DNA of 64,000 bases from an uncultured Acidobacteriota bacterium. Its GTDB lineage: Bacteria; Acidobacteriota; UBA6911; CAINFC01. Shown piece by piece: positions 5,629-60,969 of the stretch. Numbering within the stretch: position 1 is the stretch's first letter; each line of letters begins with the position of its first letter. Below the pieces are notes generated by a model. It had not been told where the DNA came from. It saw only the letters and a program-made list of their open reading frames with translations, and ran no database searches. The stretch covers positions 186,001-250,000 of the forward strand of contig CAINFC010000006.1 in the NCBI GenBank assembly GCA_903847975.1, in the 5' to 3' direction. A program made the translations under genes and the position numbers.

Positions 5629-5697
5629 TTTGTCTGTTTCTTTTCCTGAGAGGCATGCCCGATAAAGTCCGCAAACCTCAGCGAGAGGGGTTCTGCC

Positions 5698-7006: not shown

Positions 7007-7035
7007 TTGACGGGGGCCATGGGACACGATAAGAT
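7007..7035 (+). promoter_or_regulatory. Putative sigma-70 promoter of the mla operon
   Basis: TTGACG at 7007-7012 and TAAGAT at 7030-7035 are separated by 17 bases. The -10 ends only 12 bases before the mlaE ATG and no Shine-Dalgarno is visible, so the leader would be very short. Confidence 0.45.
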
Positions 7036-7047
7036 TCAGATACTTGC

Positions 7048-7806: not shown

Positions 7807-7810
7807 AAGC

Positions 7811-8602: not shown

Positions 8603-8611
8603 GAGCATTCG

Positions 8612-17300: not shown

Positions 17301-20300
17301 AAGGCGGTCGGGGAATATTTGAATACCTTCTCCTCCGGCCACCCGCGCCACTACCAGGCGGAACGTCGCCTGGAGCAGCTTCTGGAGCGGCCGGAATTCC
17401 GGAAACTCGTTCTGGCGGCCGGTTCCCAAAGATGCCGGGAATCGGAAGGCTACTCTTTTCTGGTCCCCTTTCTCCAGTTTCTGGCCCGTCAGGCGGAAGA
17501 CGCCACACTGGAAAACCTGGTGGATGCATCGCGGAAAACCCTGATTCGCGACGCGCGGGCTTTCCAGGAAGTCCGCACACTGCTTCGCCGGAGAAAAAGG
17601 GAAGCCTGCGAGGAGCGCCTGCTGAAGGAGTGGGTGCAGGACAAGCGGGAAACGTCGGAAATACTCGCCGCCACCTCCGAGCTGGCGGGATTTTACGAAA
17701 GCTACCAACGAAAAGAGGATGCCTCCCGCATTTGGGAGCAACTGGCGGAGCGCTACCCGAAGAACCTGGGAGTCATCGAGAGCGGCGTCGCTTATTATGT
17801 CCGGACCGGGCGCGTGGAAAAAGCCTTGGAGCTTCTGGCCGGAGCCCTGCCGTCTGCGAATCCTTCCTACAGAAAACAGTTTTTGTCCCGGGCCGGAGAG
17901 CTGCAGCTGGATCGTGGCAACCTTCCCGAGGCGGAGAAGTGCTGGCTTTCCCTGCTGGCCGCCGAGCCGGAAAATACCCGCGCTTTTTCTCAGCTGGCCG
18001 AGGTTTACCGCCGGCAGAACGACCTTCCGAAGCTGGCCGGGCTCTATCAGCGAACTTTGGAGCAGCTTACGGCGCCGCCCAAAGGAGAGGACCCGGAACG
18101 ACGCCAGAAGACGGAAGAAATCCGGCTGCGCCTCATCGATGTCTACCAGGCCATGAAAGAGCCGGTTCCGGCCATCGACCTCTACAAGGAACTGCTGAAT
18201 CGCAATCCGGAAAACCCGGAATGGATCACATCCGCCTCCCGGTTTGCGGATACTTTCGGGCAGAAAGACCGGCTGGTCGACTTCTTTACCCGTCAGGCAG
18301 CCCGCTCCAGCAAGGATTACCGCTGGCCGCTTCTGCTGGCCCGCATTCAGAAGGCGTTGGGAAACCGCGAGGAGTCGATTCCCCTGTATTCCAAGTCCCT
18401 GGAAATTCAGCCCACGCATCTCGAAGCGCTGCGGGAATTGACAACACTGCTGGAAGCCTCCGGTCGCTGGGAGGAGTGCCTCCCCCTGCTCAGGAAAATC
18501 CATGTGCAGACCTATCGCCGGCCGGAGCCCCTCCGGGAAGCGGCGGAAATATTGGGGCTTCAGAAGCGCATCCCGGAAGCCTTGGCCATGCTGGAAGAGG
18601 CGCAGCAGGCAGCTTCCTTACCCAAACAGCGGCGGTGGAGACAGGCGGCCCTTTCGTTGCTGCGCTGGAATCAGGTCGCGGAGGCTGCTAAGGTTGCCGA
18701 GCAGGGCTGGAATTCGCTGCTGGCCACCCGCGACGAGAATCCCATGGAGGCCGACGATCTCATCGCCTTTTCTCTTCCGGCCTTACGGCGGCAACAGCTG
18801 CCAGCCCTCTGGGACCGGCTGATCCGGTTGGGCCTCTCCCTGCCCTCCGACCATCCCGGCCGGGAGACAGTCACCTCGTTTTTGGAGTACACATTTCCCG
18901 GAATGCTCAAAACGTATGGCTCCAGCCGGCAGCTGGATCAGTTGGACGATCAGATTCGGGCGGACTGGAATAGCGGCAGGCTCGAAGCCTGGCCGGAACT
19001 TAAGCAGAGCCTCCTGACGGTGTCGCAAAATGCGGACCTGGCCTACCTGGAGGAGTGGATCTGGCAGAAGCGATACCAGGAGAGCCGGCCGCCGGACTCC
19101 CGACTGCCGGTCAATCCGCAAATCCGTCGTTCTCTTACGGATTTTTACAGGAAACGGTTCGCTCACGGGCCTTTGGCCCAGTGGCTGGTTTCGGCCGTTG
19201 CCAAAGAAACTCCCGTTCCGGATCCGGGACTGTATCTGGAAGCCGCGCGGTATTTCCGCCTGGCCGGGAAGAGCCAGGAGGAGAAAGAATCCCTGGTCCT
19301 TTTTGCGTCGCTGGATCCCAACAATGAAGACAAGAGCTCCGAGGCCATGGAACGTCTGGCCGTCCTGTTGCGCGGGCCGGGAAACCGGAGTGACTCCTCC
19401 GCCATCGAACCGGGAGCGGCTTCCGGTTCGATTCCTTTGGTGAATGCCTTTCTGTTCCTGGACCAGCCGGAGGTGGCGCTCCGGCTGATTCGTGGGCTGG
19501 AAAAAGGATTGGGAAAGAAGTGGAGTGCGGCGCAGCAAGCCCTGATCGGTTGGAAAAACGGAGCCTACCCGGAGGATGTCAATGACTATCATTTCTCCAT
19601 TCTGGGCCTGAAGAGCATTGGGGAGAGGCTTTCCCAACCTTCGGATCCCAAGGCGGACTGGATTGGCAGGGACTGGTTTTACCTGGCCTCTTCCTACGCG
19701 CAGTCGAAGGCGGCACAGGATCCGCGCCGGAAAGCCGACGCCCACCTGCATATGGCAGACCTGGAAGGCAGCCCCCAGGATACAGGCGGCTGGCTGCGAA
19801 CCGGGGAAGGCCTTATGGGTAAAGGCAGCCAGGAACAGGCCCTCTCCTTTTTCCGGCAGGCTGTGGAGCTTCAGCCGGGCAGCTTTCTGTACCAGATCCG
19901 ATACCGGGAAGCGCTCCTTGCTGCTGGCCAGGATCCCCGGAGTCTGGCCGCTCCGTTGCGGGAAATTGTGGACCGGCAGTGCAGCACGGGCAAGTTTTCC
20001 TCCCAGCGACTCGAAATCCGGAAGAGGCATGTGGACCATGTTCTCCGTCTTTCTCTCCGATACGGCTTTTTTAACGAACTGTCCGAATCCTTCCAGCGCT
20101 TCCTGGAGGAAAGCATTACATTGCAAGGGCATTGGAGCAACACCTTTTTGCTGGAAGAAATTTTGCCCCGAATTTCCAAAAGTCCGGCCAAGGAGGCGTT
20201 CCTCAAACGGATTGTACTGGCTTCTCCCCATCCACAGGAGATGGTCGATTATTTTTTCGACAGCGATCGGCTGGAGGAAACGGAAAAGCTCCCGGTGGCT

Positions 20301-21821
20301 CTCGCCGTCGTCGACCATTTGAAAACCCAGTCGGAGCTCGGTGAGGAGGGATCCCGTCAGTACATCCGCGACAGTCGGAACGACCTGCTGCTGCGCAGCA
20401 TTGACTTCATGCTCGAAACCGGAAACGCGGCCCGGGCCCAGGAACAAATACGCCTTTTCCTGGAAGATCCTGCTGCGGAGCGATGGATTCCGCAGGCCAG
20501 GTTCCTGCAGATGAAAGCCCTGCGGATTCAGGGGAAAGCCCCCGAGGCTCTCCGCATTCTGGAGGAGTGGGTGGAAAAGGATGCGGATTCCTATCTGGAT
20601 TTCAAGGACAAGGCGGAGGGGCTGTTCCTTAAAGAGGAGGAGAAGTCGACCCTGGCCCGCTGCCAGGAGCAGTATTACCGGCGGAAGCTTCTTTCTTCCA
20701 GCCTCCTGCCTGAAGATTTTCTCGGCCTGATCCGCTCTCTTTACCGCCAGAAGAAAAACCCCGAAGCCCAGGCTGCGTATCGGCAGATGAGCTGCCTATT
20801 TGCTTCTCCTCTGCTTCCCGAAAACGAAATCGAGACAGACCGGAACGATTTCTCTCTGGGGTCCGATTGGCAGGATGCCGTTGCTGAAATTGCCGAAGAG
20901 TCAGGGGATTTTCTGCTGGCCACCCAGGTCCGCCAGCAGATGCAAAGCCGGCTGCCGGTTGGAACCCTCGCCAGCGCCCGAAACCTGTGCGCCCTGGCCC
21001 GGGTGGATTGGAAAAGCGGCCGCACGGCGGACGCTCTGCTCAAAGCGCAGGAACTCCTGCCGCAGGGCGGATTGCCGGCGTCCGCCCAAAGGGATACGGC
21101 CTGGATGCTCTGGAAAGTTTCCTCTGAAAATCGGGGCCGGATCGCCGGGGCACTGAAAGAAGCTTCCCGGGATGATCCCGAAATTCAGGTCTTTCTCCAT
21201 TGGATGGGGAATTCCGGTGCCCCAGCGCCAGCCACCCTTCCGCGATATGCATCCCTTATGGATCGGGCCGCCTGCGAGGAAGGCATCCCGGGCATCCAGG
21301 CGGAGGACCTGGTCTCTTCCATCCGGCGGCTGGTTTTTCTGGATCCCGAGGACCGGAGCCGCCGCCTCCTGCTGTTCCGCCAGCTGCTGCGGCTGCAGCA
21401 GGAACGATTCGCCCTGGAAGTCCTGGATCCAAGCGGAGAATTTGCCTATGGTTATATACCGCAGGGGAAAAGAGCCTCTCTGGCCTTCCTGCGACCGCAA
21501 TCCGATGAAGGGATCGCCAGCCCGATGTCCCAGCTGGGCCTTTCGGGCGAATCCGCCTTACGCACGGCCCGCGAGGCATTTCTCGCCGCCCTGGAGGAAC
21601 AAATCTGGGAAACGGCCGACTATTACGGGCGGCTCATGATTTATTTCAGCGATCGCCCCGCGGAGCTGAAGGAATCTCTGGCGCTGCTCCGCAGGCTGAA
21701 AACAGAAAGACAGCGCCAGGAAGCCAAAAAAGACCAGCTCTGGCGGGTGTCGCGCCATATGACTCTGCCGCCTGCCTTCGCCAGCGGGGAAGGGAGTTCC
21801 TTGCCCCGGCCGAGGTTCTGA
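14364..21821 (+). CDS. Giant exported TPR-repeat protein (2485 residues)
   Basis: A single uninterrupted 2485-codon frame. The N-terminus MAKWFLFLFLTGAALTPA looks like a signal peptide with cleavage after ANA near residue 26. The rest is almost entirely alpha-helical TPR-type repeats, with phrases such as YPKNLGVIESGVAYYVRTGR, LLNRNPENPEWITSASRFAD and SLEIQPTHLEALREL recurring across the length. An acidic low-complexity linker (about residues 562-608, Glu/Asp/Ser/Pro-rich) breaks the array. No catalytic domain is recognisable. It probably works as a periplasmic scaffold. It is followed by a DUF3352-like exported protein, and the two may function together. There is no strong ribosome-binding site before the ATG. 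Confidence 0.9.
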   Translation: MAKWFLFLFLTGAALTPATMTSSANAPEGAGKDPLEEIFYRKALLLGSEALVPRPTREVVEGLRTIVRTPSTRPEYLRILAAEEIALEEVESAENHFLAYVKALGESEEALTGLAAFYESRGKVAQQVQALRQAMMKSSGKEIAGTPLARRASYSLAQKILKVIEFSPVDGVSRLDILNDLVRLYPSDADVQKEIHQEWIRQKATRELRSALVLFRQKFPEEKEYAVGLEAEALELEGTPDQARSLLESSFQPLWPDFLLRKYSRAIRRDRNYWKERISSLSRRLESGTGDTDAAVRLFYAFQQEGNLLRACQVLNHISRTKEKASSARAAKGGWLPEELYVWGILYKHLGHYDEAAGHFYSLYNRNAPPAVNASPSLWPNLTTQPDREEALYQLFDTLIEANSHFTRIGSGNLAYFSQLASMDRHPGLLNGILSILLNRTDPGQQYRMQEEKATAYFNARRAESLYRIFLVEFPKSGRIPIMQWQVLRQYAKYGAHEAILRLGEQFLQRFPDKINEAGGAGILLSDAYLALNRKEEAWKTYERLLDLLARRGAQKLFRDKEDAKPGPREEPPSAESSEGNEEMAGDGSRPMPDEKEDSTAENREATPVVDYEFVLQRYISALAGAKLIPQALTLFRREIERHPQEAGLYERLSSFLEQNRLDQEVEAVYLRAIQQFKEATWYNRLARWYLRRKMTDKFLSLSQQLVESLPGDPLATYLREILEKDPAGNRIYLQVNLLALQRFPHNLTFVRNLLRYYSNRRALVPEWEKLTRRYFFFDSEIQKLYLGALSSQNRLGAMTDSLAESEKQEATSGTDKGFSPAERAFLGSARTWRSRFEEAEADLRRLASDFPAYPEYTRQLVDLQRSLGARNARHYQEAAGREEKWARLFPTQNERWIKAGEIWADAGSLDKAVELWNQIAVRQPRNPERIVDAATVFWDYYLFDPAEKWIRQYRTAARLPDALFYEMGAILESRGEREKAVGEYLNTFSSGHPRHYQAERRLEQLLERPEFRKLVLAAGSQRCRESEGYSFLVPFLQFLARQAEDATLENLVDASRKTLIRDARAFQEVRTLLRRRKREACEERLLKEWVQDKRETSEILAATSELAGFYESYQRKEDASRIWEQLAERYPKNLGVIESGVAYYVRTGRVEKALELLAGALPSANPSYRKQFLSRAGELQLDRGNLPEAEKCWLSLLAAEPENTRAFSQLAEVYRRQNDLPKLAGLYQRTLEQLTAPPKGEDPERRQKTEEIRLRLIDVYQAMKEPVPAIDLYKELLNRNPENPEWITSASRFADTFGQKDRLVDFFTRQAARSSKDYRWPLLLARIQKALGNREESIPLYSKSLEIQPTHLEALRELTTLLEASGRWEECLPLLRKIHVQTYRRPEPLREAAEILGLQKRIPEALAMLEEAQQAASLPKQRRWRQAALSLLRWNQVAEAAKVAEQGWNSLLATRDENPMEADDLIAFSLPALRRQQLPALWDRLIRLGLSLPSDHPGRETVTSFLEYTFPGMLKTYGSSRQLDQLDDQIRADWNSGRLEAWPELKQSLLTVSQNADLAYLEEWIWQKRYQESRPPDSRLPVNPQIRRSLTDFYRKRFAHGPLAQWLVSAVAKETPVPDPGLYLEAARYFRLAGKSQEEKESLVLFASLDPNNEDKSSEAMERLAVLLRGPGNRSDSSAIEPGAASGSIPLVNAFLFLDQPEVALRLIRGLEKGLGKKWSAAQQALIGWKNGAYPEDVNDYHFSILGLKSIGERLSQPSDPKADWIGRDWFYLASSYAQSKAAQDPRRKADAHLHMADLEGSPQDTGGWLRTGEGLMGKGSQEQALSFFRQAVELQPGSFLYQIRYREALLAAGQDPRSLAAPLREIVDRQCSTGKFSSQRLEIRKRHVDHVLRLSLRYGFFNELSESFQRFLEESITLQGHWSNTFLLEEILPRISKSPAKEAFLKRIVLASPHPQEMVDYFFDSDRLEETEKLPVALAVVDHLKTQSELGEEGSRQYIRDSRNDLLLRSIDFMLETGNAARAQEQIRLFLEDPAAERWIPQARFLQMKALRIQGKAPEALRILEEWVEKDADSYLDFKDKAEGLFLKEEEKSTLARCQEQYYRRKLLSSSLLPEDFLGLIRSLYRQKKNPEAQAAYRQMSCLFASPLLPENEIETDRNDFSLGSDWQDAVAEIAEESGDFLLATQVRQQMQSRLPVGTLASARNLCALARVDWKSGRTADALLKAQELLPQGGLPASAQRDTAWMLWKVSSENRGRIAGALKEASRDDPEIQVFLHWMGNSGAPAPATLPRYASLMDRAACEEGIPGIQAEDLVSSIRRLVFLDPEDRSRRLLLFRQLLRLQQERFALEVLDPSGEFAYGYIPQGKRASLAFLRPQSDEGIASPMSQLGLSGESALRTAREAFLAALEEQIWETADYYGRLMIYFSDRPAELKESLALLRRLKTERQRQEAKKDQLWRVSRHMTLPPAFASGEGSSLPRPRF

Positions 21822-48755: not shown

Positions 48756-50009
48756 ATGAAAAGGTACCGGTTTCCTGTCGCCTTCCTCTGCGCCACTGCC
48801 TCCGCCGGCTACCTGAGCCGGGTCAACGTATCGATCGTCGCCCCGCTGCTGATTTCCCGTTTCGGATTCACCGAGGTGGAAATCGGCAGTCTGTTCAGTG
48901 CCTTTCTTGCCGGTTATGCCATGTTCCAGGCCCTGGGCGGCTGGATTGCCGACCGGCATGGCCCGCCCAGAACGCTGATGGCCTCCTCTTTCCTTTGGAC
49001 GGTGCTGACCCTTCTGTTTCTTTCCATCGGCTGGATGTCGGTAGCCTCGACCTGGGCCTTGACGCTGGGAATGGTATTGCGATTTCTTCTGGGAATCGCC
49101 CAGGCCCCCTTGTTTCCTGCCTCGGCGGCCGCAGTGTCCGGCTGGGTTCCGCCCCACATGCAGGCACGGTGCAATGCGGTGGTTCTGGCTGGAGTCAGCA
49201 TCGGATCGGCCGCCGCTCCGATGCTGATCTCCCCGGTGATGACCCGCTTCGGCTGGCAGGCGGGCATGCTCATCTCCATCCTTCCGGCATGGATCGTTTT
49301 CCTGGTCTGGAGAAAAACCGCCCCATCCTGGGATCCGGTCCTCCGCCGGACGGACCGGCCGGAACAGCAGACCCCGGCCCCTGCGGCCTCCTTCCTGCGC
49401 TCCGCTTCCTTCTGGATGCTCACCTTCAGTTACAGCCTGCAGGGCTACGTGGGGTACATCTTTGTTTTCTGGTTTTACCTCTACCTGGTACGAGTCAGGC
49501 ATTTCAGCCTGCTGGAAGGAGCCTTTTTCAGCAGCCTGCCCTGGGTGCTGTCCATGATTTCCATTCCCCTGGGAGGTTGGCTTTCCGACCTGTTGATCCA
49601 TACCCGTCTGGGAAGGCAGTGGGGGCGACGCGCCGTTCCGGTGTTCGGCCTGGCAGGGGCGGGCATCACGCTGGCGCTGGGGGCGGGAACCGGCAGCCCC
49701 TATGCCGCGGCTTTCTACCTGGCACTGTCCACATCCCTGGTTCTTTGCGTGGAGGGCCCTTTCTGGGCAGCGGTCACGGAAATCGGCCGGGCTCATCCCG
49801 GGGCCGGGGGCGGGATCATGAACACCGGGTGTAACCTGGGTGGCTTCCTTTCTCCTCTGCTGACACCCTGGCTGGCGGAGAGGATCGGCTGGGAGGGAGC
49901 GCTTTACCTGGCTGCGGTTTTATCCTTGATTGCGGCTGCGGCCTGGTGCCGGATATGGCTCCCGGAAGCTAAGCCAGGTTGCGATTCTGATACGCCTTGC
50001 GGGACTTGA
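48756..50009 (+). CDS. MFS transporter (anion:cation symporter-like)
   Basis: A 417-residue, 12-helix transporter. The first helix reads SAGYLSRVNVSIVAPLLI, and IADRHGPPRTLM is the loop 2-3 motif. It resembles ACS-family hexuronate/organic-anion porters (ExuT-like), which would suit the nearby uronate isomerase, but the substrate is a guess. The ATG is at 48756; the open frame upstream is a shadow of the sugar-porter gene. Its 3' end overlaps the convergent radical SAM gene by 41 bases. Confidence 0.9.
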   Translation: MKRYRFPVAFLCATASAGYLSRVNVSIVAPLLISRFGFTEVEIGSLFSAFLAGYAMFQALGGWIADRHGPPRTLMASSFLWTVLTLLFLSIGWMSVASTWALTLGMVLRFLLGIAQAPLFPASAAAVSGWVPPHMQARCNAVVLAGVSIGSAAAPMLISPVMTRFGWQAGMLISILPAWIVFLVWRKTAPSWDPVLRRTDRPEQQTPAPAASFLRSASFWMLTFSYSLQGYVGYIFVFWFYLYLVRVRHFSLLEGAFFSSLPWVLSMISIPLGGWLSDLLIHTRLGRQWGRRAVPVFGLAGAGITLALGAGTGSPYAAAFYLALSTSLVLCVEGPFWAAVTEIGRAHPGAGGGIMNTGCNLGGFLSPLLTPWLAERIGWEGALYLAAVLSLIAAAAWCRIWLPEAKPGCDSDTPCGT

Positions 50010-50997
50010 AGCCGAAATGCGCTCCGACGCTCTCCGCAAAAAGCTGACGGAAAGTCTTGTCCAGATACGAGCGGATGGAAACGTAGCACTCGTCGCATTT
50101 GTTCTGGCGGGTAAATTCCCGGATCATCCGGTCCTGCTGATCGAGAGGGAATCGTATGAACTGCATGGAGCAGGGCTGCAGCATGCCGTCGGCCGTAACC
50201 ACCAGGAACCTCTGGCCGGACATACAGCCGGGCGTGCCTTTATTCGCGAAATAATCGTAGGTGGCATCCAGAGTCGCCAGGCTGTTGACGATCCAGTGGG
50301 TGTGGTTCATGCGGTGTTTGATCTGATCCAGCTGCTTTTTCAGGAGCTTCAGATCGTCCGGAGCTCCTGGAAAAAGCTTTTTGTTTCCCGTACGCCTCGA
50401 GGAATAAGCGCTGTAGCTGATATTTACCCCCCATTGAACCGCTTTATCCGCACACTCGTTGAGGTAGGGCAGATTCTCCTTGGTGATGCAGACGTTGAGA
50501 ACGATATCGTCGTATCCCAGCTTTCCCAGCCGGGGCATCAGCTCACTGAGCCGGTCGTAAAGCCCGGGCAGGCCGCGGAACTTGTCGTGGCGATCATCGG
50601 GGAAGTCCAGGCTGACGGAAAACTGATTGACGCCAGCCTCGCGCAGCGCCAAGTATTTCTCCTCGGTCATGTGCGACCAGTTGGAGACCAGAATCAGATA
50701 AGGCAGGCCGGAAGGCCGCTTGATGGTGCGGATGATGTCCAGGATATCGTCGCGCATCAGCGGCTCCCCGCCGGAAACCTGGACCACCGCGGGATGCAGC
50801 ACGCGCATGTAGCGGTCGTAATCGCGGGCTTTCAACTGCCTGCTTTCGTCCCGCGGCCCGCCGTGATCGCAATGCCGACAGAAGCAGGTGCAGCTGTCGG
50901 TTACTTCAAACGAGACCACCAGGGGTCGTTTTTGAATCCAGTTCAAAGTGGACCGGAGAATGACTCCGATCGATTCCTGCAGAGGCAATCTTCTCAT
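49969..50997 (-). CDS. Radical SAM protein with C-terminal Cys-rich domain
   Basis: A 342-residue radical SAM enzyme. The [4Fe-4S]/SAM motif is CTCFCRHC (Cys36, Cys40, Cys43). The SAM-binding GGEPLM follows, and the C-terminal part has cysteines in GCMSGQ, QPCSMQF and CDECY, resembling a SPASM/twitch auxiliary cluster. Such proteins often modify peptides or small metabolites; no partner peptide is evident. GGGAAA about 5 bases upstream is the ribosome-binding site, directly below a terminator-like hairpin. Promoter TTGAAA-17-TATAAT is at 51117-51089. It is divergent from the AAA gene. Confidence 0.9.
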   Translation of the reverse strand: MRRLPLQESIGVILRSTLNWIQKRPLVVSFEVTDSCTCFCRHCDHGGPRDESRQLKARDYDRYMRVLHPAVVQVSGGEPLMRDDILDIIRTIKRPSGLPYLILVSNWSHMTEEKYLALREAGVNQFSVSLDFPDDRHDKFRGLPGLYDRLSELMPRLGKLGYDDIVLNVCITKENLPYLNECADKAVQWGVNISYSAYSSRRTGNKKLFPGAPDDLKLLKKQLDQIKHRMNHTHWIVNSLATLDATYDYFANKGTPGCMSGQRFLVVTADGMLQPCSMQFIRFPLDQQDRMIREFTRQNKCDECYVSIRSYLDKTFRQLFAESVGAHFGFKSRKAYQNRNLA

Positions 50998-51169: not shown

Positions 51170-52963
51170 ATGGTAAAAATGGATTCTATTATGCAATCAT
51201 CACCTCAGGAAAAAGCGGCCCGGCGGATACCCGCCTGGGCGGAAAACCTCCGGAACCAGTTCCTGGCGGACGAATGCAGCCAGTTCCTGATTCACGGCAA
51301 CGTGTACGACCTCTTTCCTTTCCGGCAGGAATACCTGGGTCTCAGGGACTTTCTGCAGAAAGGGCTGCTGGCGGAAAAGTGGGTCCTGTTCTACAACCGC
51401 AGCGAAGGCCTGGTGGTATCGGATCCCGCAGGTACCGTTCAGGAACCGGCATGGCTGCTCGGCCTGGCCTCTTCCTGCGGAAGCCTTCTGGAAACGGAGA
51501 GCGGAGCGCGCTCGGTGGCCGCGGATCCGGATCGGGTGCTTCCCCTGCTGGACCGGGTTTTGCAGACCGCGCGAGGCTCCTCCCGGAATTACGCTTTCGT
51601 TCTGGACTATGCCGAAACGATTCTGCCGGAGACCTCGATGACCTTTCTTTCGGACGGAGAGCGAAAGAACCTGATCACCGTTCACCGCTGGGCCGACGAT
51701 TTGGATCTGCGCCTTTCCAACGGAGTGGTGCTGCTGATCGCGGAAACTCTGGCGGATGTGAACGCCCGTATACGCAGCCATCCCAGCATCAATCTGATCG
51801 AAATTCCTTTCCCCGACCAAGAGGAGCGCCAGGCGTTCATTGAATCCCTGATCGCCCTTCTGGGCTCCGGGCTCACCTTGGCCCTTGCCCCGCAAAAGCT
51901 GGCGGAAGTGACCAGCGGGCTCAGTCTGACTCATATCGAAAAAATGATCCGCTCCGCCTGGAAGCAGGGCACACAGCTGGACTACGAAACCGTTGTCAGG
52001 CGCAAAAACAGCGTAATCGAAAAAGAGAGCGGTGGATTGCTGGAGGTGGTATACCCGAAGCATAGCGTGGATGATTGCGCCGGCCATACGCTGGCCAAAA
52101 AGAGAATTCGCAGAGAGATCGCCAAAATCAAGTCTGAGCAGCGAAGCAAGTGCCCGGCCGGAATCATCCTGGTCGGAGAAATGGGAACCGGAAAAACCTA
52201 CCTCACCTTCGCCATCGCCTTCGAATTCGGGCTGCCGGTGGTAATCATCAAAAACCTGCTCGGAAGCCTGGTCGGGCTTTCCGACAGCAATCAGGAAAAA
52301 ATGCTCTCCATGCTGGAAGCCATGGCGCCCATTATCGTGATCGTGGACGAAGGGGACGTTTTCTTCGGCAAGAGAAAAAGCGAAGGGGACAGCGGCGTGC
52401 AGAGCCGGCAGTTCGGGCGTTACGCCACCTTCATGAGCCAGGGGTCCCATCGCGGTCGCGTTTTCTGGATCATCAATTCCGCTCACCCCGACAACCTGGC
52501 CGACGATTTCAAACGGCCGGGTCGCTGCGACGTGATTATCCCGCTCTTCCCCATGCTATCCCAGGAGGATCAGAAAGAAACCCTGGTCAAGGTTTTCGCG
52601 CAAAGGGGGATCGATACGACATCCTTCGACTGGGAAAAGAGCCTGGCCCTGCTGGCCGAAACCGGCAGCCAGGGGTGGCCGGTGAGGGAGTATACCGCTT
52701 CGGATCTCTCCAAAATCGCGGTCCTGGCCGAAGACCTTGCCGAAGAGCGGGGCGCCGCGGCCGTTCAGTCGGAGGATCTGGCCACCGCTTTGCAGCAGTA
52801 CTCTCCGGGATCCATTCAACTGGTAAAGAAATACCAGCGGCTGCTGGCCATCACCGAATGCACCGCCGCGGAAACGGTTCCCGAACCCTACCGGTCGCTG
52901 CCCCTGGAGGAGGTGTACCGGCAGATACGCGAGCTGAAAATACAGCTCGGAGATCGTATCTGA
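51170..52963 (+). CDS. AAA+ ATPase of the PspA-ABC cluster
   Basis: A 597-residue ATPase. The N-terminal half (to about 290) looks like a degenerate AAA module beginning FLIHGNVYDLF, without a Walker A motif. The second module has Walker A GEMGTGKT at 336-343, Walker B IIVIVDE with Asp393/Glu394 and an RPGRCDVII arginine-finger region near 450. This architecture resembles Ycf46/SpoVK- or Vps4-like remodelling ATPases. The C-terminus ends in an amphipathic helix (EEVYRQIRELKIQL). The next genes encode a coiled-coil protein and PspA, so a role in remodelling those proteins is plausible. The start is uncertain (ATG at 51170, 51179 or 51191). Confidence 0.85.
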   Translation: MVKMDSIMQSSPQEKAARRIPAWAENLRNQFLADECSQFLIHGNVYDLFPFRQEYLGLRDFLQKGLLAEKWVLFYNRSEGLVVSDPAGTVQEPAWLLGLASSCGSLLETESGARSVAADPDRVLPLLDRVLQTARGSSRNYAFVLDYAETILPETSMTFLSDGERKNLITVHRWADDLDLRLSNGVVLLIAETLADVNARIRSHPSINLIEIPFPDQEERQAFIESLIALLGSGLTLALAPQKLAEVTSGLSLTHIEKMIRSAWKQGTQLDYETVVRRKNSVIEKESGGLLEVVYPKHSVDDCAGHTLAKKRIRREIAKIKSEQRSKCPAGIILVGEMGTGKTYLTFAIAFEFGLPVVIIKNLLGSLVGLSDSNQEKMLSMLEAMAPIIVIVDEGDVFFGKRKSEGDSGVQSRQFGRYATFMSQGSHRGRVFWIINSAHPDNLADDFKRPGRCDVIIPLFPMLSQEDQKETLVKVFAQRGIDTTSFDWEKSLALLAETGSQGWPVREYTASDLSKIAVLAEDLAEERGAAAVQSEDLATALQQYSPGSIQLVKKYQRLLAITECTAAETVPEPYRSLPLEEVYRQIRELKIQLGDRI

Positions 52964-53028
52964 CCCGTGAATAATTGGGAGGCTTCGAGGTATCTTTATT
53001 GAACATTCCTGGAAAGGGAAAGAACGGT

Positions 53029-53661
53029 ATGGAACAGAAACCCAAAGGAAAGTCGTGGATCAGCAACCTGTTATTTGAGGACGAAGGACGTGCATCGGAA
53101 AGCCCGGCGGAATCCTCGGACACTTTCGAACCGGAACTGCCTGTTTCCGAACCCGTCATCGCTCCTGTCGCCGCCCGGCCGGAAGCCATCGGCGGGGGGA
53201 AAGCTTCGGACGGTGCGCTTTTAAATCTGAAGGAGATTTACCGCAGCGCCGGAATCGCGGAAAACCCTTTTGCCACCCCGGAGCAGGTTATGGAGCTGCA
53301 GGCCACCTTTTCCGACCTTCCGGTGGAAATGCAGAAGCAGAAGGTACTGAAAACTCTTGGCTCCTTCAAGGTGGACGTCCAGGCGATTGTGGATAATACC
53401 CGGGCCAAGACTTCCGCCCTGGGAAGCTACCTCCAGGGAATTCAGACCGACGCCCAGAACACCATCGAGGCCAGCAACCAGACCATTGCCCAGCTGCAGG
53501 AGCAGATCGACGCCTGCCGGTCCCGGATCACCGAGGCGCAGTCGCTGCTCGACCAGACCCAAGCGCATTGCGGCCGTGAAATCAGCCGCCTGAAAGAGGT
53601 GCTGGATTTTCTCGGGGCTACCGCTTCTTTGGACGCCCCGCCGGACAGGCGGATAAAATAA
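53029..53661 (+). CDS. Coiled-coil protein, function unknown
   Basis: A 210-residue protein I do not recognise. The first 60 residues are acidic and Pro/Ser-rich (low complexity). The segment LLNLKEIYRSAGI and the VEMQKQKVLKTL region look like a small helical domain. Residues about 120-195 are a coiled coil with heptad-type Leu/Gln/Glu spacing (IAQLQEQIDACRSRITEAQS). There is no membrane helix or signal. The ATG at 53029 gives MEQKPKGKSWIS; the frame extends to 52975. It sits 65 bases after the AAA gene and 40 bases before pspA, and may be a PspA partner or adaptor. Confidence 0.75.
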   Translation: MEQKPKGKSWISNLLFEDEGRASESPAESSDTFEPELPVSEPVIAPVAARPEAIGGGKASDGALLNLKEIYRSAGIAENPFATPEQVMELQATFSDLPVEMQKQKVLKTLGSFKVDVQAIVDNTRAKTSALGSYLQGIQTDAQNTIEASNQTIAQLQEQIDACRSRITEAQSLLDQTQAHCGREISRLKEVLDFLGATASLDAPPDRRIK

Positions 53662-53701
53662 CAGTACGAATTTGGAACCAAACTAATCAGGAGGAAAGCG
53701 T

Positions 53702-54424
53702 ATGGGACTGTTCAGCCGAATATGGAATATCATCAAGGGGATTTTATTCGAGGGCGTGGAAAAAGCCGAAGTGAAAAATGCCGGCGTGGTCTTCGATCAG
53801 GCCATTCGGGCCAAGATCGATCGCTACCACCGTCTGCGCGATGCCGTCGGAGGCCTGGAAGCCAATCGCATCCGGATGGAAACCCGCTTGAACGAGCTGA
53901 AGCGAACCCTGGAAGAAGTCGAATCCGACCTCCGGGCTGCCATCGCCAACGAGAACGAGACGCTCGGCCCCATTCTCCTGCAAAAGAAGCAGGAGCTGGA
54001 AACCCAGATCCCACCGCTGGAGCGGGAGCTCGAACAGGCGGTGGCGGAGCTGAAAGACCATATGCAGAACCTGACCATGGCCCAGGCGGACATCCAGAGG
54101 CTGCGGCAGGAGAAAGAGCGCGCCCTGGCCACGGCGGAGACCGATCTGCTGCGCAAGGAAATTGAAGATGAAATTGCCCACCTGTCGGTGGACAGCTCGG
54201 AAATGGCGGCCCTGGATAACGTCCGCCAGAGGCTTGACAAGTTGCACGGGGAGGCCCAGGTCGCCAAGAAGCTGGGAGAAACCGATATCAACCGGCAGCT
54301 GCAGTCTCTGCGTGCCGAGTCCCGTGCCACCAATGCCAAGTCGGACTTCAAAAAGCTGGTGGAAATGTCCAAAGCTCAGGCCGCCGGCGGTAAAGTCGAG
54401 AAGACTCTGGGGCCGAAGGAATAA
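53702..54424 (+). CDS. pspA: PspA/IM30 (ESCRT-III superfamily) protein
   Basis: A 240-residue coiled-coil protein of the PspA/Vipp1 family. The N-terminus MGLFSRIWNIIKGIL is the amphipathic membrane-binding helix typical of the family. The rest is almost all charged helix with heptad repeats (KRTLEEVESDLRAA, AQADIQRLRQEKERAL). PspA-type proteins assemble on membranes and repair or remodel them under envelope stress. AGGAGGAAAGCG before the ATG is a strong ribosome-binding site. No PspB/C/F regulators are nearby; instead it sits between a coiled-coil gene and an ABC transporter module. Confidence 0.88.
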   Translation: MGLFSRIWNIIKGILFEGVEKAEVKNAGVVFDQAIRAKIDRYHRLRDAVGGLEANRIRMETRLNELKRTLEEVESDLRAAIANENETLGPILLQKKQELETQIPPLERELEQAVAELKDHMQNLTMAQADIQRLRQEKERALATAETDLLRKEIEDEIAHLSVDSSEMAALDNVRQRLDKLHGEAQVAKKLGETDINRQLQSLRAESRATNAKSDFKKLVEMSKAQAAGGKVEKTLGPKE

Positions 54425-54487
54425 TTGGCTCCCGAGAATACGGTTTATTTTTTCGTTTTTCTTGTCTGTACACAAGGAGAGCTCACC

Positions 54488-56059
54488 ATGGCACGTTTGA
54501 AAACCGGACCGAAAATTGTTCTTAGCCTGCTTCTGCTGGCCGTTGTCGGCTATTCTGTTTATCGCTATTGGCCCAAAATTCAGGAGATGACCGGCCTGTC
54601 CAAGCCTGGTTCTTCATCCGTTTCCGAATCGAAAAGCGGCTCTGCCGGCGAAAGCGCGTCGCGTTCGTCGGGTTCCAGCAATCAGGTGCGGGTGAGGGTC
54701 AACATCTGGGTCGGGTGTGTTCCCGGCCTGGTGGCCAACGGCGGCCTGGACACCCAGCCCGGATCCATTTTCGATCAGAAGGGACTCAAGGTCGAATTCA
54801 AAATCATTGACGACTGGACGGAAGGCGCAGCGGCACTGGCCACGGGCAACGTGGACGTGATGCTGACCACGGTGGACGTCTTTGCCAAGGATTACTTCCA
54901 GTTTTCCGAGAAGAAGTTCCCCACCCAGACGGTTCTGATGGTGGACTGGTCCCGGGGTGCGGATGGGATTATTGCCCGGCAGGGAATCAATTCCATTGAG
55001 GATCTGGCCGGCAAAGTCGTGGCTTTTCCGGAATTCACACCTTCGCACTTCCTGCTGCACAATGCCCTGAAGCAGTCGGGTCTGGCCAGCGCCCAGATAT
55101 CGGAGATCCTGAGCCGGGCGGTGCACACCAAAGATGGCATCGACAGTGCCACCATTTTCGGCCAGCAGAAAGTGGACGCGGCCGTCGCCTGGGATCCGGA
55201 CATGAGCGATGCGGTCGGCAAGCGTCCCGGTTCGAAGAAGATTTTCGACACCAAGGTGGCCAACAAGCTGATTGCCGACATTCTCATCGTCGGCGAGAAG
55301 TACATTCAGGAGCAGAGCCCGACGCTGTCGAAATTCCTGGACGGATGGCTGCAGGGAGTCGAGTTCATCAAGCAGAATCCGCAGCGCGCCTACTCCCTGA
55401 TCGGAGCGGTGAAGGATTTTAATATCCCCGCCGATCTGGCCAAAATCATGCTGGAAGGGGTCAAACTGGCGGACTATTCCGAAAACTCCCAGTTTTTTGC
55501 CCTGAAGGGCGGCCTATCCGACTATGCCAACATTTTCAACATGGCCCAGGACACCTGGAGGGATCTGCGGGTGATCAAGCGGTCCACCGATCCTCTGAAA
55601 ACCGTGGAACCACGCTTCGTAAAGAACCTGGAAGCCAAGTACCCGCAGGCAGCTCCGGAAGCGGCACCGACTTACACGGCCCCGGCCAAGTCGGCGACTC
55701 CCATCATGACCCAGCAGAAGAGCATCTATTTCGAGACCAACTCCGCCCAGATGAGCCCGGACTCCCGGGTCATTGTGGATGAAATCGGCAGCTTTATGCG
55801 GGCTTACGAGAACACCGTGGTGGACATCGAAGGAAACACCGATTCCACCGGCAACCGGGAATACAACATGAACCTGTCCCGTGAGCGGGCGGAGAGCGTG
55901 AAAAGCTACCTGACGGGCAAGTACTCCTTTCCTGCTTCGCGGATACGGACTTTCGGCAACGGGCCCGACAAGCCGTTGGAAAACAACAATACGCCCGAAG
56001 GGCGCGAGAAGAACCGTCGCACCGACATCAAGGTGTATCCGAACCCCGCCTCCAAGTAG
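54488..56059 (+). CDS. Membrane-anchored ABC substrate-binding protein fused to an OmpA-like domain
   Basis: A 523-residue protein. An N-terminal transmembrane helix (about 9-27) is followed by a Ser-rich linker. A NitT/TauT-type (NMT1/SsuA-like) substrate-binding domain spans about 65-400, with GNVDVMLTTVDVFA, VAFPEFTPSHFLLHNAL and DAAVAWDPDMSDAV. A Pro/Ala linker leads to a C-terminal OmpA-like domain (about 420-515) carrying the peptidoglycan-contacting residues in GNTDSTGNREY and LSRERAESV. The binding domain would thus be tied both to the inner membrane and to the cell wall. AAGGAGAG precedes the ATG. A strong hairpin follows the stop before the permease gene. Confidence 0.88.
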   Translation: MARLKTGPKIVLSLLLLAVVGYSVYRYWPKIQEMTGLSKPGSSSVSESKSGSAGESASRSSGSSNQVRVRVNIWVGCVPGLVANGGLDTQPGSIFDQKGLKVEFKIIDDWTEGAAALATGNVDVMLTTVDVFAKDYFQFSEKKFPTQTVLMVDWSRGADGIIARQGINSIEDLAGKVVAFPEFTPSHFLLHNALKQSGLASAQISEILSRAVHTKDGIDSATIFGQQKVDAAVAWDPDMSDAVGKRPGSKKIFDTKVANKLIADILIVGEKYIQEQSPTLSKFLDGWLQGVEFIKQNPQRAYSLIGAVKDFNIPADLAKIMLEGVKLADYSENSQFFALKGGLSDYANIFNMAQDTWRDLRVIKRSTDPLKTVEPRFVKNLEAKYPQAAPEAAPTYTAPAKSATPIMTQQKSIYFETNSAQMSPDSRVIVDEIGSFMRAYENTVVDIEGNTDSTGNREYNMNLSRERAESVKSYLTGKYSFPASRIRTFGNGPDKPLENNNTPEGREKNRRTDIKVYPNPASK

Positions 56060-56085
56060 CCGGTCGGTTCGCGTCGTATTTCATT

Positions 56086-56133
56086 CGGGATGCCGGATAG
56101 CGGATCTCCGCAACACCGGCATCCCGGACTTTT
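56086..56133 (+). terminator. Terminator-like hairpin within the ABC cluster
   Basis: Perfect 11-bp arms CGGGATGCCGG (56086-56096) and CCGGCATCCCG (56116-56126) surround a 19-base loop, followed by GAC and T4. It lies between the binding-protein gene and the permease gene. It may lower downstream expression or protect the upstream mRNA. Confidence 0.55.
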
Positions 56134-56151
56134 CCATTAAGGAACAAGTGC

Positions 56152-56952
56152 ATGCTGATTCAGCGACGAAAGCTTTCTTTATTTGCCAGGGTCGGCCTGG
56201 GAGTGATCGCCTGGCTCCTTTTCCTGGGCCTATGGTACCTGAGCGCCATCTTCGAGTGGCTACCGCCCATGTCCCTCCCCCATCCCGTCGATGTCGTCAA
56301 GGCATTTTTCCGCCTGTGGATGGAAAACGACCTGATCGGCAATGTTGCCATCAGCTGGTGGCGGATTGCACAGGCCTTTTTCTGGTCTACGCTGATCGCT
56401 TTGCCGCTCGGAATAATCATGGCGTTCTCAGAGCCGGTCTTTCACTTTGTGAATCCCATTGCCGCTCCCATGCGCTCCATGCCGGTCAGCGCCTTTCTTC
56501 CGGCCATTATCGCCGTGTTTGGCCTGGATGAACAGATGAAGATCGCTTTTCTATTTATCGGGATGTTCTTCTATCTTCTCGCGATTGTCACCGAGGAAGC
56601 CAACCGGGTTCGGAAAGAGCTGATCGAAACCGCCCTTACCCTGGGCGCCAAAAAGCTCCAGGTGCTCTGGCTGGTCTTTTGTGCCAGCTTTCCTCCGATC
56701 TACGGTTCCTTCCGGATCCTCTACGATATCGGCTGGACCTATGTCATCCTGGCCGAAGTGGTAAATTCCCGCAAAGGAATCGGCTACATGATCGAGTCCG
56801 CCCGGAAGTTCCTGGACTTCGATCGCGTTTATGCCGGCATCATTGCCATCGGACTGGCTGCTTTTCTCTTTCGCTGGCTGCTGAAAATGTCGGAGCACTG
56901 GCTCTTCCCGTGGCAGAAAGTGGCCACCCGTGCGGCCGGAAAGGAGGAGTAG
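56152..56952 (+). CDS. ABC transporter permease (NitT/TauT/SsuC family)
   Basis: A 266-residue membrane protein with about six helices. The family EAA-type loop reads EEANRVRKELIETALTLGAKK, and GIGYMIESARKF is a common SsuC/TauC motif. It would form the pore for the preceding OmpA-fused binding protein. TAAGGA lies before the ATG. The ATPase gene follows after one base. The substrate is unknown; sulfonate-, nitrate- or pyrimidine-like ligands are typical of the family. Confidence 0.93.
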   Translation: MLIQRRKLSLFARVGLGVIAWLLFLGLWYLSAIFEWLPPMSLPHPVDVVKAFFRLWMENDLIGNVAISWWRIAQAFFWSTLIALPLGIIMAFSEPVFHFVNPIAAPMRSMPVSAFLPAIIAVFGLDEQMKIAFLFIGMFFYLLAIVTEEANRVRKELIETALTLGAKKLQVLWLVFCASFPPIYGSFRILYDIGWTYVILAEVVNSRKGIGYMIESARKFLDFDRVYAGIIAIGLAAFLFRWLLKMSEHWLFPWQKVATRAAGKEE

Positions 56953-56953
56953 C

Positions 56954-57781
56954 ATGAGGACGGAAAGGAAAGTCAAACTCCAGGTCAGCAATCTTTGCAA
57001 ATCGTTCGTTTCGCCGGAAGGGAAAAGGATCGAAGCGGTTCGCGACGTCTCCTTCGAAATCGAAGACCTTTTTAAAAATGAACGGGACATCGGCGAGTTC
57101 CGGGTTTTTCTGGGGCCCTCCGGCTGCGGAAAGTCCACCGTGCTGCGCATGATCGCCGGACTGGAATTTCCGGACAAGGGGTCCATTCTCCTGCAGGGCC
57201 AGCCGGTTTCCGGACCGGGCCGCGACCGGGGGATGGTTTTCCAGAAATACGCCTCCTTCGATTGGATGACCGTCCGGAAAAATATCGAGTACGGCATGAA
57301 AATCAATGGAGTGGACGAGAAAACAAGGGAAGCTGTGGCCCGCAAGCTCATACAGGATGTGGGGCTTTCGGGGTTTGAAAACTCCTACCCGCAGCACCTG
57401 TCCGGGGGAATGCAGCAGCGGGTGGCGATTGCCAGAACCCTTGCCATCAACCCGGAGCTGGTTCTAATGGACGAGCCCTTCGGCGCACTGGATGCCCAGA
57501 CCCGCGGGGAGATGCAGCTTCTGCTGACCGACATCTGGGAAAAGAATGCCAGTACGATCCTTTTCGTTACCCACGATGTGGAAGAGGCGGTCTTTTTAGC
57601 CGACCGGATCTACATAATGACGTCTCGCCCGGGTACAATTCTGGAGGAGCACGAGGTGCCCTTCGAGAGGCCCCGCAGCATTGCTCTCAAGGAGAACCAC
57701 TCTTTTCACGAGTTGCAGAATACGATTCTTGACCGGCTGCGCAAAGCATCGGGGCGGGGTCAGGTGCGCGTTGGAATTTGA
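56954..57781 (+). CDS. ABC transporter ATPase (NitT/TauT/SsuB family)
   Basis: A 275-residue ATPase with Walker A GPSGCGKS at 54-61, a Q-loop near MVFQKYASF, the signature LSGGMQQRVAIARTL, Walker B LVLMDEPFGALD and switch His in FVTHDVEEA. Compared with SsuB/TauB there is a short charged insert (EDLFKNERDIGEF) before Walker A. The ATG at 56954 follows AAGGAGGAG. It is the energising subunit for the preceding permease. The next gene starts within its last bases. Confidence 0.94.
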   Translation: MRTERKVKLQVSNLCKSFVSPEGKRIEAVRDVSFEIEDLFKNERDIGEFRVFLGPSGCGKSTVLRMIAGLEFPDKGSILLQGQPVSGPGRDRGMVFQKYASFDWMTVRKNIEYGMKINGVDEKTREAVARKLIQDVGLSGFENSYPQHLSGGMQQRVAIARTLAINPELVLMDEPFGALDAQTRGEMQLLLTDIWEKNASTILFVTHDVEEAVFLADRIYIMTSRPGTILEEHEVPFERPRSIALKENHSFHELQNTILDRLRKASGRGQVRVGI

Positions 57782-58631
57782 AGCTAAGGTGGCGAAAGAA
57801 ACGGAAAAAAAAGAAACCAGCTATGCCCGGGAAGCCTTCCTGAACGGGTACAACCTGGCCTTCCTCGGCGCCGCGGCAGCCTTAGGGCTGTTGAATTGGG
57901 ACTTCGTGCCTCTGCTTTCGGGAGTAATTCTGCCGCTGGAAGCGCTTTACATGCTCTTCGTCCCGGACCAGGGATGGTTTCGCCGCTGGGTCGATCTGCA
58001 GCAGGGCATCGAAAGCCAGAAGGAGGAGGCCCGGAGGAAAAGCGAGCTTCTGGCCAGCTTTTCCCCGGAAGTCCGGGACCGCTATGTGCAGCTGGTGCGC
58101 CTGAAGGAGGAAATCGCCAACTACTGCAAGGGCACGGAAGCGTCCTGTCCGCTCGATTCCGAGGATCTCGTCAAGCTGGACAGCTATCTGGATTCTTTCG
58201 TATATTTCATCCAGTTCCGGGCCCAGTGCCTGGCCACCAAGCTTTCCATCGACACCGCGGAAATTCAAAAGCGGATTAAGCGTCTGGAGCGCGAAGTGGA
58301 ATCGGACCGTAATAACCCGGACCGTCAGCAGGTAAACGCCCTTCGGGCGGAAAACATCAAGATGAATCAGGAAATCCTGGACCGCGTAGAGCGGCTGGAC
58401 AGCTACATGATGATGGTCGACGCCCAGACCGAAGCGATCGAAAATACCCTGAAGCTGATTCAGGTCAGGCTGGCTACTTCCAACTTCCAGGCCGAAGGGG
58501 AGGTGGAACTGGTATCCTCGGATATCAACCATCTGCTGGATGCCATCCATAGCACCGAAAAGAACCTGGAGGAGGCCAGCAAAGACATGGTCAAGATCAA
58601 GAAGCTCACCCGACTTTCCATCACGCCCTAA
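57771..58631 (+). CDS. Two-TM coiled-coil protein of the ABC/PspA cluster
   Basis: A 286-residue protein I do not recognise as a named family. Two hydrophobic helices (about 20-60) lie near the N-terminus (LAFLGAAAALGLLNW and LLSGVILPLEALYMLFV). The remainder is a charged helical region with heptad-like spacing (EIQKRIKRLEREVESDR, HSTEKNLEEASKDM). The likely start is TTG at 57771, overlapping the ATPase gene end by 11 bases; a GTG at 57789 is an alternative. Tight overlap with the ABC ATPase suggests it is part of the same system, perhaps a membrane partner of PspA. Confidence 0.75.
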   Translation: MEFEAKVAKETEKKETSYAREAFLNGYNLAFLGAAAALGLLNWDFVPLLSGVILPLEALYMLFVPDQGWFRRWVDLQQGIESQKEEARRKSELLASFSPEVRDRYVQLVRLKEEIANYCKGTEASCPLDSEDLVKLDSYLDSFVYFIQFRAQCLATKLSIDTAEIQKRIKRLEREVESDRNNPDRQQVNALRAENIKMNQEILDRVERLDSYMMMVDAQTEAIENTLKLIQVRLATSNFQAEGEVELVSSDINHLLDAIHSTEKNLEEASKDMVKIKKLTRLSITP

Positions 58632-58643: not shown

Positions 58644-59516
58644 ATGAATCGACGGACTTTTCTTGGATCGGTGATGGCAGTGCGGGAGATGCTCCCATGG
58701 GACTCCGCCCGGCTGGGAATTGCCTGTTCGCTGGGGGATTCCGAGGATACGGCCAGGAAAGCTCTGAGCGAGGCCCGGCAGGCCGGCTTCACGCGGGCGC
58801 AGCTGCAAATCCCCTGGACCAGAGTCGATGACTCCTTCCTGCGAAAGGTACCCGGCTGGCTGCGACAGGAAGGGCTTCAGGCAGACGTCCTGGGCGCATA
58901 TGTAAACTGCTGCCTCCCGGCAAATGTGTGGATGGATTGCCGGGAGCAGGATTTTGACCGGGCCATCGAAACCGCCGGATTGATCGGTGCCCGCAGGCTG
59001 GTCGCCTGGACAGGCGGTTACGGTGCGGATTTGATGAAAGCCGACCCCAGAAACCATGACCCTGCCGCCGAAGATGCGGTCTGCCGCTTTGTGGAAATCC
59101 GGACGCGGAAAATGGAAAGTTCCGGCCTTCAATTGGCTCTCGAGACCTATATCACCCTGGTCTGCCCCGATGCGGTGTCTCTTTCCCGGCTCCTCAAGCG
59201 GCTGCCAAACCGGGTCGGAGCGGTTCTGGATCCTCCGAACCTCACTCCCATCGCCCTTTTTCCGCAGAGGGATAAGGTGCTCAAGGATATGTTTCGCCTG
59301 CTGGCCGGCCGAATCCAGCTGGTCCACCTCAAGGACTTCCGACTGGCGCCCGGCGGTGCCTCCTATCTGCTCCCCGGACCTATGGAAGGAGATCTGAACT
59401 ACCGGCTTTTTCTGGACCGTATCCGGCAGCTCCCTTCCGATATTCCGGTCATCGCCGAGCACCTTTCGTCCCGCCAGTTTGCGAATGCCCGGCAGCGGCT
59501 GCTGGCCTCTTTTTAG
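58644..59516 (+). CDS. Sugar phosphate isomerase/epimerase-like TIM-barrel protein
   Basis: A 290-residue protein of the xylose isomerase-like TIM-barrel superfamily. NRRTFLGSVMA at the N-terminus resembles a Tat motif but with little hydrophobic sequence. Barrel features include GLQLALETYI (Glu), GAVLDPPNL (Asp) and QLVHLKDFR (His, Asp), a metal-site pattern of this superfamily. The exact reaction is unknown. GAAGAGGACA lies before the ATG. It starts 12 bases after the cluster's last gene and 46 bases before uxaC. Confidence 0.85.
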   Translation: MNRRTFLGSVMAVREMLPWDSARLGIACSLGDSEDTARKALSEARQAGFTRAQLQIPWTRVDDSFLRKVPGWLRQEGLQADVLGAYVNCCLPANVWMDCREQDFDRAIETAGLIGARRLVAWTGGYGADLMKADPRNHDPAAEDAVCRFVEIRTRKMESSGLQLALETYITLVCPDAVSLSRLLKRLPNRVGAVLDPPNLTPIALFPQRDKVLKDMFRLLAGRIQLVHLKDFRLAPGGASYLLPGPMEGDLNYRLFLDRIRQLPSDIPVIAEHLSSRQFANARQRLLASF

Positions 59517-59562
59517 ACCTCATCATCTGGACATGCAGGCGGCCCGGTGTCATAATCTGGGC

Positions 59563-60969
59563 ATGCTTAATCCAAATCGTTATTTCCACCCCGAGCCGGG
59601 CACTCGGCAAATTGCCCGTGAACTTTATGAAATTGCCGCACAGTTCCCGCTGGTCTGCCCCCACGGCCATGTCGATCCGCGGATTCTGGCGGAAAACAGT
59701 CCCTTCCCCGACCCTTCGGAGCTGCTGATCATCCCCGATCACTACGTCTTCCGGATGCTCTATTCCCAGGGAGTCTCACTGGAAAGCCTCGGCATCCCGC
59801 GAAAAGACGGCGGATGGACCGAGGCCGACCGGCGAAAAATCTGGCAGATTTTTGCCGACCATTATTACCTGTTCCGGGGGACGCCCAGCTGGTGCTGGCT
59901 CCGCCAGGAATTTGCGGATGTCTTCGAAATCGAGGAGAGGCTCGACAGCGGGAACGCCATGCGGCTTTACGATCGGATCGCCGCCAAGCTGGCCGAGCCG
60001 GAATTCCGTCCCCGGGCTCTTTTTGAGCGCTTCCGCATCCAGGTTCTCTGCACCACGGACGCAGCCACGGATGACCTCGCCCATCATCGCAAAATAAGGG
60101 AATCCGGCTGGGGAGGTGATGTCCGGCCCACTTTTCGCCCGGACATCGTAATGACCCTGCTCCACCCCTCCTGGAGAGAGAGCATCGGGCAGATGGAAAA
60201 GCAGACCGGCATTTCCATCGGCGGTTACCGGGCCTATATTCAGGCTCTGGAAAGGCGCCGTGAGTTTTTCAAAACCATGGGCTGCACCTGCACAGACCAT
60301 GCCGTCCTGGAGCCCTACACGGCGGAACTGAGTACGCAAAAGGCGGAAGAAATTTTTATCCGGGCCCTTGGCGGCCACGCCACCGTGGAAGACGACCGCC
60401 TTTTTACCGCCCATATGCTGATGGAAATGGCGCGGATGAGCGTGGCGGATGGTCTGGTCATGCAGCTGCACCCCGGCTCTTTTCGGAATCACAACCAGTC
60501 CGTATTTGACCGGTTTGGCCCGGACAAGGGCTGCGATATCCCGGTGAGCACCGAATACACCCGGAATCTCCGCGCCCTTCTGAACAAGTACGGCAACGAA
60601 AGCCGGTTTCGGCTGGTCCTGTTTACCCTGGACGAATCGAGCTATTCACGGGAGCTGGCGCCCCTCGCGGGGCATTATCCTGCTCTGCGCCTGGGGCCTG
60701 CCTGGTGGTTCCACGACAGCCTGGAAGGGATGATGCGCTTCCGGAAAATGGTCACCGAGACGGCCGGCATTTACAACACGGTAGGATTCAATGACGACAC
60801 CCGGGCCTTCCTTTCCATACCGGCGCGGCACGACCTCTCCCGCCGGGTGGATTCGAACTTTCTGGCGGAACAGGTAGCCACGCATGTCATCGAGAAAGAG
60901 GAAGCGGAGGAGATGATCCGCGACCTTTCCTACCGCCTGGTACGCAAGACGTACGGATTCGACCGGTAG
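59563..60969 (+). CDS. uxaC: Glucuronate/galacturonate isomerase
   Basis: A 468-residue uronate isomerase that converts D-glucuronate to fructuronate or D-galacturonate to tagaturonate in uronic acid catabolism. Motifs: CPHGHVDPR (metal His pair), the segment CTTDAATDDLAHH and GFNDDTRAFLSIPARHD (catalytic Asp and Arg region). The length is typical. The ATG at 59563 (MLNPNRYFHPEPG) fits family N-termini; the frame extends to 59479. It is downstream of the sugar isomerase and near sugar transporters. A hairpin follows at 61011-61042. Confidence 0.95.
   Translation: MLNPNRYFHPEPGTRQIARELYEIAAQFPLVCPHGHVDPRILAENSPFPDPSELLIIPDHYVFRMLYSQGVSLESLGIPRKDGGWTEADRRKIWQIFADHYYLFRGTPSWCWLRQEFADVFEIEERLDSGNAMRLYDRIAAKLAEPEFRPRALFERFRIQVLCTTDAATDDLAHHRKIRESGWGGDVRPTFRPDIVMTLLHPSWRESIGQMEKQTGISIGGYRAYIQALERRREFFKTMGCTCTDHAVLEPYTAELSTQKAEEIFIRALGGHATVEDDRLFTAHMLMEMARMSVADGLVMQLHPGSFRNHNQSVFDRFGPDKGCDIPVSTEYTRNLRALLNKYGNESRFRLVLFTLDESSYSRELAPLAGHYPALRLGPAWWFHDSLEGMMRFRKMVTETAGIYNTVGFNDDTRAFLSIPARHDLSRRVDSNFLAEQVATHVIEKEEAEEMIRDLSYRLVRKTYGFDR

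Follow-up and report, generated by a model that had tools for sequence, protein, structure and literature searches.

Background

In the classical view, PspA is an envelope-stress effector. Among the AAA+ ATPases, Vps4 carries an N-terminal MIT domain, and Cdc48/VCP is a segregase.

A Vps4-like ATPase for bacterial PspA/Vipp1 was stated to be an open question by Liu et al. 2021 (PMC8281802), and an SBP, ProX, is found in some archaeal ESCRT loci as well (PMC10936438). Main-text passages of Ravi et al. 2024 (PMC11237479) describe PspA in an operon with a double AAA+ protein whose N-terminal copy is inactive, an ABC pair and a PBPB-OmpA protein; ATP-dependent membrane remodelling tied to solute transport was inferred by those authors. 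As far as these passages describe it, the locus reported here has the same parts in one operon: PspA, an AAA+ protein with an inactive N-terminal copy, an ABC ATPase, a permease and an SBP-OmpA protein. The operon type and the remodelling idea are already known as a prediction from that work and are not new here. The present locus differs from that operon type, as the passages present it, in having the AAA+ gene first and an altered pore loop. Two helical protein families called c and t below, the division into a core (AAA+, PspA, t and often c) and an importer (SBP, permease and ATPase), the importer swaps and the kept anchor are not named in the main-text passages of that paper. No experimental study of this cassette type was found in the main texts of the open-access literature.

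Methods

The window is a stretch of 64,000 nucleotides from an uncultured Acidobacteriota bacterium with an 8.1 Mb genome (326 contigs). Homologues of its AAA+ protein were gathered blind to their neighbours from 100 relatives and a scan of 84,980 species genomes, which yielded 98 distinct loci. Neighbour families were scored by iterated profile search of all ORFs within 9.5 kb, with same-strand and opposite-strand matches kept apart. This search took the place of longest-ORF gene calling, in which long antisense ORFs gave misleading results at high GC.

The cassette and its setting

Positions 51170-58631 of the window hold seven plus-strand genes in the order A-c-P-B-M-N-t, where A is AAA+, P is PspA, B is SBP-OmpA, M is the permease and N is the ABC ATPase. 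The first-pass annotation had described seven consecutive same-strand genes of these kinds, and all seven are present, five with Pfam matches and c and t as helical proteins without a Pfam family.

51170..52963, plus strand: Cdc48/VCP-like AAA+ protein of 597 aa, in which a degenerate N-terminal AAA domain is followed by a single active one (PF00004, E 2.7e-16)
52250..52276, plus strand: pore loop 1 of the AAA+ protein (KNLLGSLVG), with Leu in place of an aromatic residue (alignment of 98 homologues)
53029..53661, plus strand: c, helical, its C-terminal part a single long helix; no Pfam family (AF2 model)
53702..54424, plus strand: PspA/IM30, of the bacterial ESCRT-III superfamily (PF04012, E 3.9e-18, full length; profile against Vipp1/PspA structures, E 8e-34)
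54488..56059, plus strand: putative wall-tethered SBP, consisting of a TM anchor, a NitT/TauT-type SBP and OmpA (NMT1, PF09084, E 1.3e-12; OmpA, PF00691, E 1.2e-20)
54488..54589, plus strand: N-terminal membrane anchor of the SBP, which stays with the core in importer swaps (locus comparisons)
55727..56017, plus strand: OmpA peptidoglycan-binding domain of the SBP (PF00691, full length; profile matches OmpA/Pal/MotB-type domains)
56152..56952, plus strand: ABC importer permease, TauC/SsuC-like (PF00528, E 1.1e-17; top NCBIfam TauC)
56954..57781, plus strand: ABC importer ATPase with intact motifs (PF00005, E 1.4e-29; family conservation)
57771..58631, plus strand: t, membrane hairpin and coiled coil, core member, no Pfam or NCBIfam match (AF2 model)

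The intergenic gaps are, in cassette order, 65, 40, 63, 92 and 1 bases, followed by an 11-base overlap. With the starts used here this is the spacing first described, namely earlier gaps of 40-92 bases and a last trio of genes that lie 1 base apart and then overlap by 11. The start taken for c is the ATG at 53029; a TTG farther upstream at 52975 is also open.

A divergent radical SAM/SPASM-like gene lies upstream of the cassette (49969-50997, minus strand), and a strong sigma-70-like match is found near it on the minus strand (51117-51089). Downstream, a xylose-isomerase-like TIM-barrel gene begins 12 bases past t and is followed by the gene for the glucuronate isomerase UxaC (58644-60969, plus strand). 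These two genes could share a transcript with the cassette; they are absent from the recurring neighbour families. Elsewhere the window contains an ORF of 2485 aa (14364-21821, plus strand).

Conservation of the gene set

The gene-neighbourhood search that the first-pass annotation had suggested was run on the 98 AAA+ loci, and the gene set recurs, with the full set found together in several phyla. Same-strand neighbours were PspA in 60 loci, t in 53, the ATPase in 43, the permease in 40, SBP-OmpA in 39 and c in 23, although these locus counts are not independent events, since the sample leans towards AAA+ proteins resembling that of the window and includes related MAGs. On the opposite strand, each family was found in 0-2 loci. 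All 56 full-length PspA candidates from the AAA+ loci independently matched PF04012. The relatives contain about 38 PspA genes in roughly 0.44 Gb (the total is an estimate); at that density, chance would place PspA this close in fewer than 0.1 of the 98 loci. The association of AAA+ with PspA, at 60 of 98, is thus far beyond chance. From the importer side, a strong full-length SBP-OmpA match is present in 15 of the 100 relatives, and 13 of these 15 have the AAA+ protein (Fisher p 2.5e-9). The seven genes are one real, widely conserved unit.

The commonest complete orders are c-P-B-M-N-t-A (12 loci) and P-B-M-N-t-A (11 loci), and the window has the same gene set with AAA+ shifted to the front. 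Ten of the 98 loci are core-only, with P-t-A and no importer. Members occur in Acidobacteriota, Planctomycetota, Myxococcota, Armatimonadota, Latescibacterota, Elusimicrobiota, Riflebacteria and others. At one locus (L041:3-7277), three tandem SBP-like genes are followed by a divergent permease-ATPase-AAA set (G052).

PspA is absent near AAA+ in 34 of the 98 loci, some of them on short contigs. In a fully supported AAA+ clade of 17 rows, drawn from Myxococcota and other Proteobacteria, PspA is never nearby; the members of this clade (L048, L053-L058, L065-L067, L071-L073, L076, L078, L079 and L083) are also without t or an importer nearby, which suggests that AAA+ has another use there. No convincing weak relatives of c, t or PspA were found in the AAA-only loci. 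Because the AAA+ family occurs without PspA, its members do not all have to act on PspA. Two members of the clade, L076 and L079, are MAGs titled Klebsiella pneumoniae; their AAA+ proteins group with Myxococcota/Deltaproteobacteria, and the label is probably wrong.

The AAA+ protein

The C-terminal domain matches archaeal VCP-like/Cdc48 chains in profile comparison (E 1e-77), with the Walker A K, the Walker B DE and the arginine fingers intact. The N-terminal domain can be aligned to the AAA domains of Cdc48 between the Walker B region and the lid (E 2e-7) and has no Walker A motif; on this alignment it is a degenerate AAA domain, predicted to be inactive. There is no sign of the Vps4 MIT domain in the window protein, in which the N-region is the degenerate AAA domain and the closest structures are Cdc48/VCP. 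The aromatic residue of pore loop 1 is W or Y in 97 of the 98 homologues and is L in the window only. The Arg beside it, present in 94 of 98, is lost in the window copy too, and the loss of both residues suggests that this copy may be specialised or weak.

PspA and the helical proteins c and t

The window's PspA is the sole PspA match in the 8.1 Mb genome. No match to PspB or PspC was found anywhere in its 326 contigs, and none to PspF above the cut-off, so that the absence of all three, first noted for the window, extends to the whole genome.

The AF2 model of t is all helical (pLDDT 90) and places a hydrophobic hairpin at residues 26-66 (helices 26-41 and 43-66). The protein had been described as a two-TM coiled-coil protein; the coiled coil stands, and the modelled hairpin may be re-entrant instead of crossing the membrane fully twice. 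The model of c (pLDDT 80) has a disordered N-terminal half and a long helix at 117-202. A PspA/Snf7 relationship of t was considered and rejected: profile comparison with PspA gave a probability of 9%, no Pfam family matched and no fold match reached E <= 0.001. An ESCRT-III assignment of c was likewise rejected, as its top fold match, a CHMP1B/IST1 structure, was not significant (E 1.3). Profile and fold comparison therefore detected no ESCRT-III relationship for either protein. These two unnamed families belong to the core, c often but not always, and their membership is new here.

The importer

A hydrophobic membrane segment with no evident cleavage site opens the SBP, and its C-terminal part is an intact peptidoglycan-binding OmpA domain. 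Its nearest solved structures are sulfonate- and taurine-binding proteins, at low similarity. Family alignments show the SBP site residues and the motifs of permease and ATPase to be preserved, as they are in functional importers. The earlier suggestion of a wall-tethered importer is supported by the predicted membrane segment and OmpA domain together with these motifs.

A tethered SBP could also belong to a sensor, in which the peptidoglycan-bound SBP and the ABC pair would sense solute or the spacing of wall and membrane and trigger the assembly of PspA to repair the envelope, with transport secondary. The classical role of PspA in envelope stress fits such a reading, as does an SBP that bridges membrane and wall like a MotB-type tether. 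We consider it unlikely, given that the importer's site residues and motifs are kept as for transport and that the cassette contains no regulator or kinase.

Importer exchange on a kept core

Correlations of distance matrices among the tested core pairs (AAA+, PspA, t and c) were r 0.83-0.94, compared with 0.90 within the importer and 0.63-0.69 between core and importer, all values that still contain shared species history. Trees of the concatenated core and of the concatenated importer disagree in places.

Two importer swaps can be read from pairwise identities. The first, and the clearest, is in Bryobacterales, where AAA+, PspA, t and c of L060/L062 and L070 are 74-96% identical, whereas SBP, permease and ATPase are 22-30% identical. 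In the second, L037 is 57-82% identical to L114/L104/L039 in the core and 20-30% in the importer; its importer instead shares 53-70% identity with the one in L060/L062, and the cores of these loci share 16-34%. The window itself shares 59-65% identity with L070 in the importer versus 14-33% in the core, and its core is closest to that of L051 from Latescibacterota (PspA 48%).

DNA similarity between L070 and L062/L060 runs through c, PspA and the first SBP codons, ends at L070 position 5912 or 5955 and restarts at 9085-9087, directly after the ATPase stop at 9082. In L037, similarity to the core relatives covers the anchor codons (5416-5492) and is back at ~8897, and the SBP body, permease and ATPase in between (~5633 to 8759) match L060/L062. 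The SBP anchor is identical to that of the core relative at 19/28 and 19/27 positions in the two swaps, and to that of the importer relative at 4/26. These comparisons indicate that the importer trio has been replaced wholesale at least twice on a kept core, which is new as far as we found, with breakpoints that in both swaps fall directly behind the codons for the SBP anchor and where the ATPase gene ends, or close to that point. Since the anchor was kept with the core both times, it is likely the coupling point and may contact a core protein. In the same L037 locus, t is inverted and relocated between the PspA and SBP genes (L037:4517-5232, minus strand), and gene order is thus not essential.

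Chimeric MAGs are unlikely to account for the swaps, because L060 and L062 are arranged alike and, in L037, the importer has core genes on either side within a contig of 146 kb.

The exchanges bear on two further explanations. The importer and the PspA/AAA+ module could simply be co-expressed and function separately; the modules are indeed separable and exchangeable, and in some genomes related SBP-OmpA genes are distant from AAA+. Co-expression alone, however, does not predict that importers of different lineages should enter at one common position and leave the anchor in place, and we regard this explanation as very unlikely. Alternatively, the AAA+ protein could be a chaperone that assembles, extracts or recycles importer components (or t or c) while PspA merely stabilises the bilayer. 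Its closeness to the Cdc48/VCP segregase rather than to Vps4 with its MIT domain would suit such a function, and its covariation with t is no weaker than that with PspA (r 0.92 and 0.88). Yet core-only loci retain PspA, t and AAA+ without any importer, and AAA+ is unchanged by importer swaps, and a chaperone role seems improbable to us.

Proposed mechanism

Our main reading, to which we give roughly an even chance (about 0.5), is that the cassette is one functional unit in which the core is docked via the SBP anchor to an interchangeable importer and the AAA+ protein turns the PspA assembly over. The core of PspA, AAA+, t and often c would form a membrane-associated scaffold and ATP-driven remodeller. 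The importer would be an exchangeable ABC module whose SBP is held between the inner membrane, by its anchor, and the peptidoglycan, by its OmpA domain, and the core may dock onto it through the anchor segment. PspA would polymerise and organise or protect a membrane patch around the wall-tethered importer; t and c may serve as its adaptors at the membrane. A Cdc48-like AAA+ ring acting on PspA, t or c could then turn the assembly over, which would presumably favour uptake or help to keep the envelope intact. What the sequences show is which parts are present and conserved, how they divide into modules, that importers were swapped and that the anchor stayed with the core; a Vps4-like disassembly mechanism is plausible but unproven. 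More tentatively, the cassette might be a bacterial ESCRT-like machine, in which PspA polymers are driven by a dedicated Cdc48-type AAA+ protein as the Vps4 analogue and serve as a dock for wall-tethered importers via one TM anchor helix.

The cassette is a natural candidate for supplying the PspA/Vipp1 ATPase and is common in uncultured Acidobacteriota, Planctomycetota and Myxococcota. Its importer swaps separate core from cargo, indicate a short anchor as the connector and make a testable architecture of what was a list of neighbours.

Comparison with known systems

The window shares with TauABC/SsuABC-type importers of taurine, sulfonate or nitrate the SBP, permease and ATPase families with intact motifs, but its SBP is membrane-anchored, OmpA-fused and encoded with PspA and AAA+. 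PspA is all that it shares with the classical Psp system (PspF, PspABC): the window's genome is without PspB/PspC and has no PspF over the cut-off, and the window's AAA+ is not an NtrC-type activator. As in the ESCRT-III/Vps4 systems of archaea and eukaryotes, a protein of the ESCRT-III superfamily is encoded with a classic AAA ATPase, and their adjacency is conserved here. The window differs from those systems in having PspA rather than Snf7/CdvB, and a Cdc48-like AAA with a degenerate AAA N-domain and no MIT domain seen.
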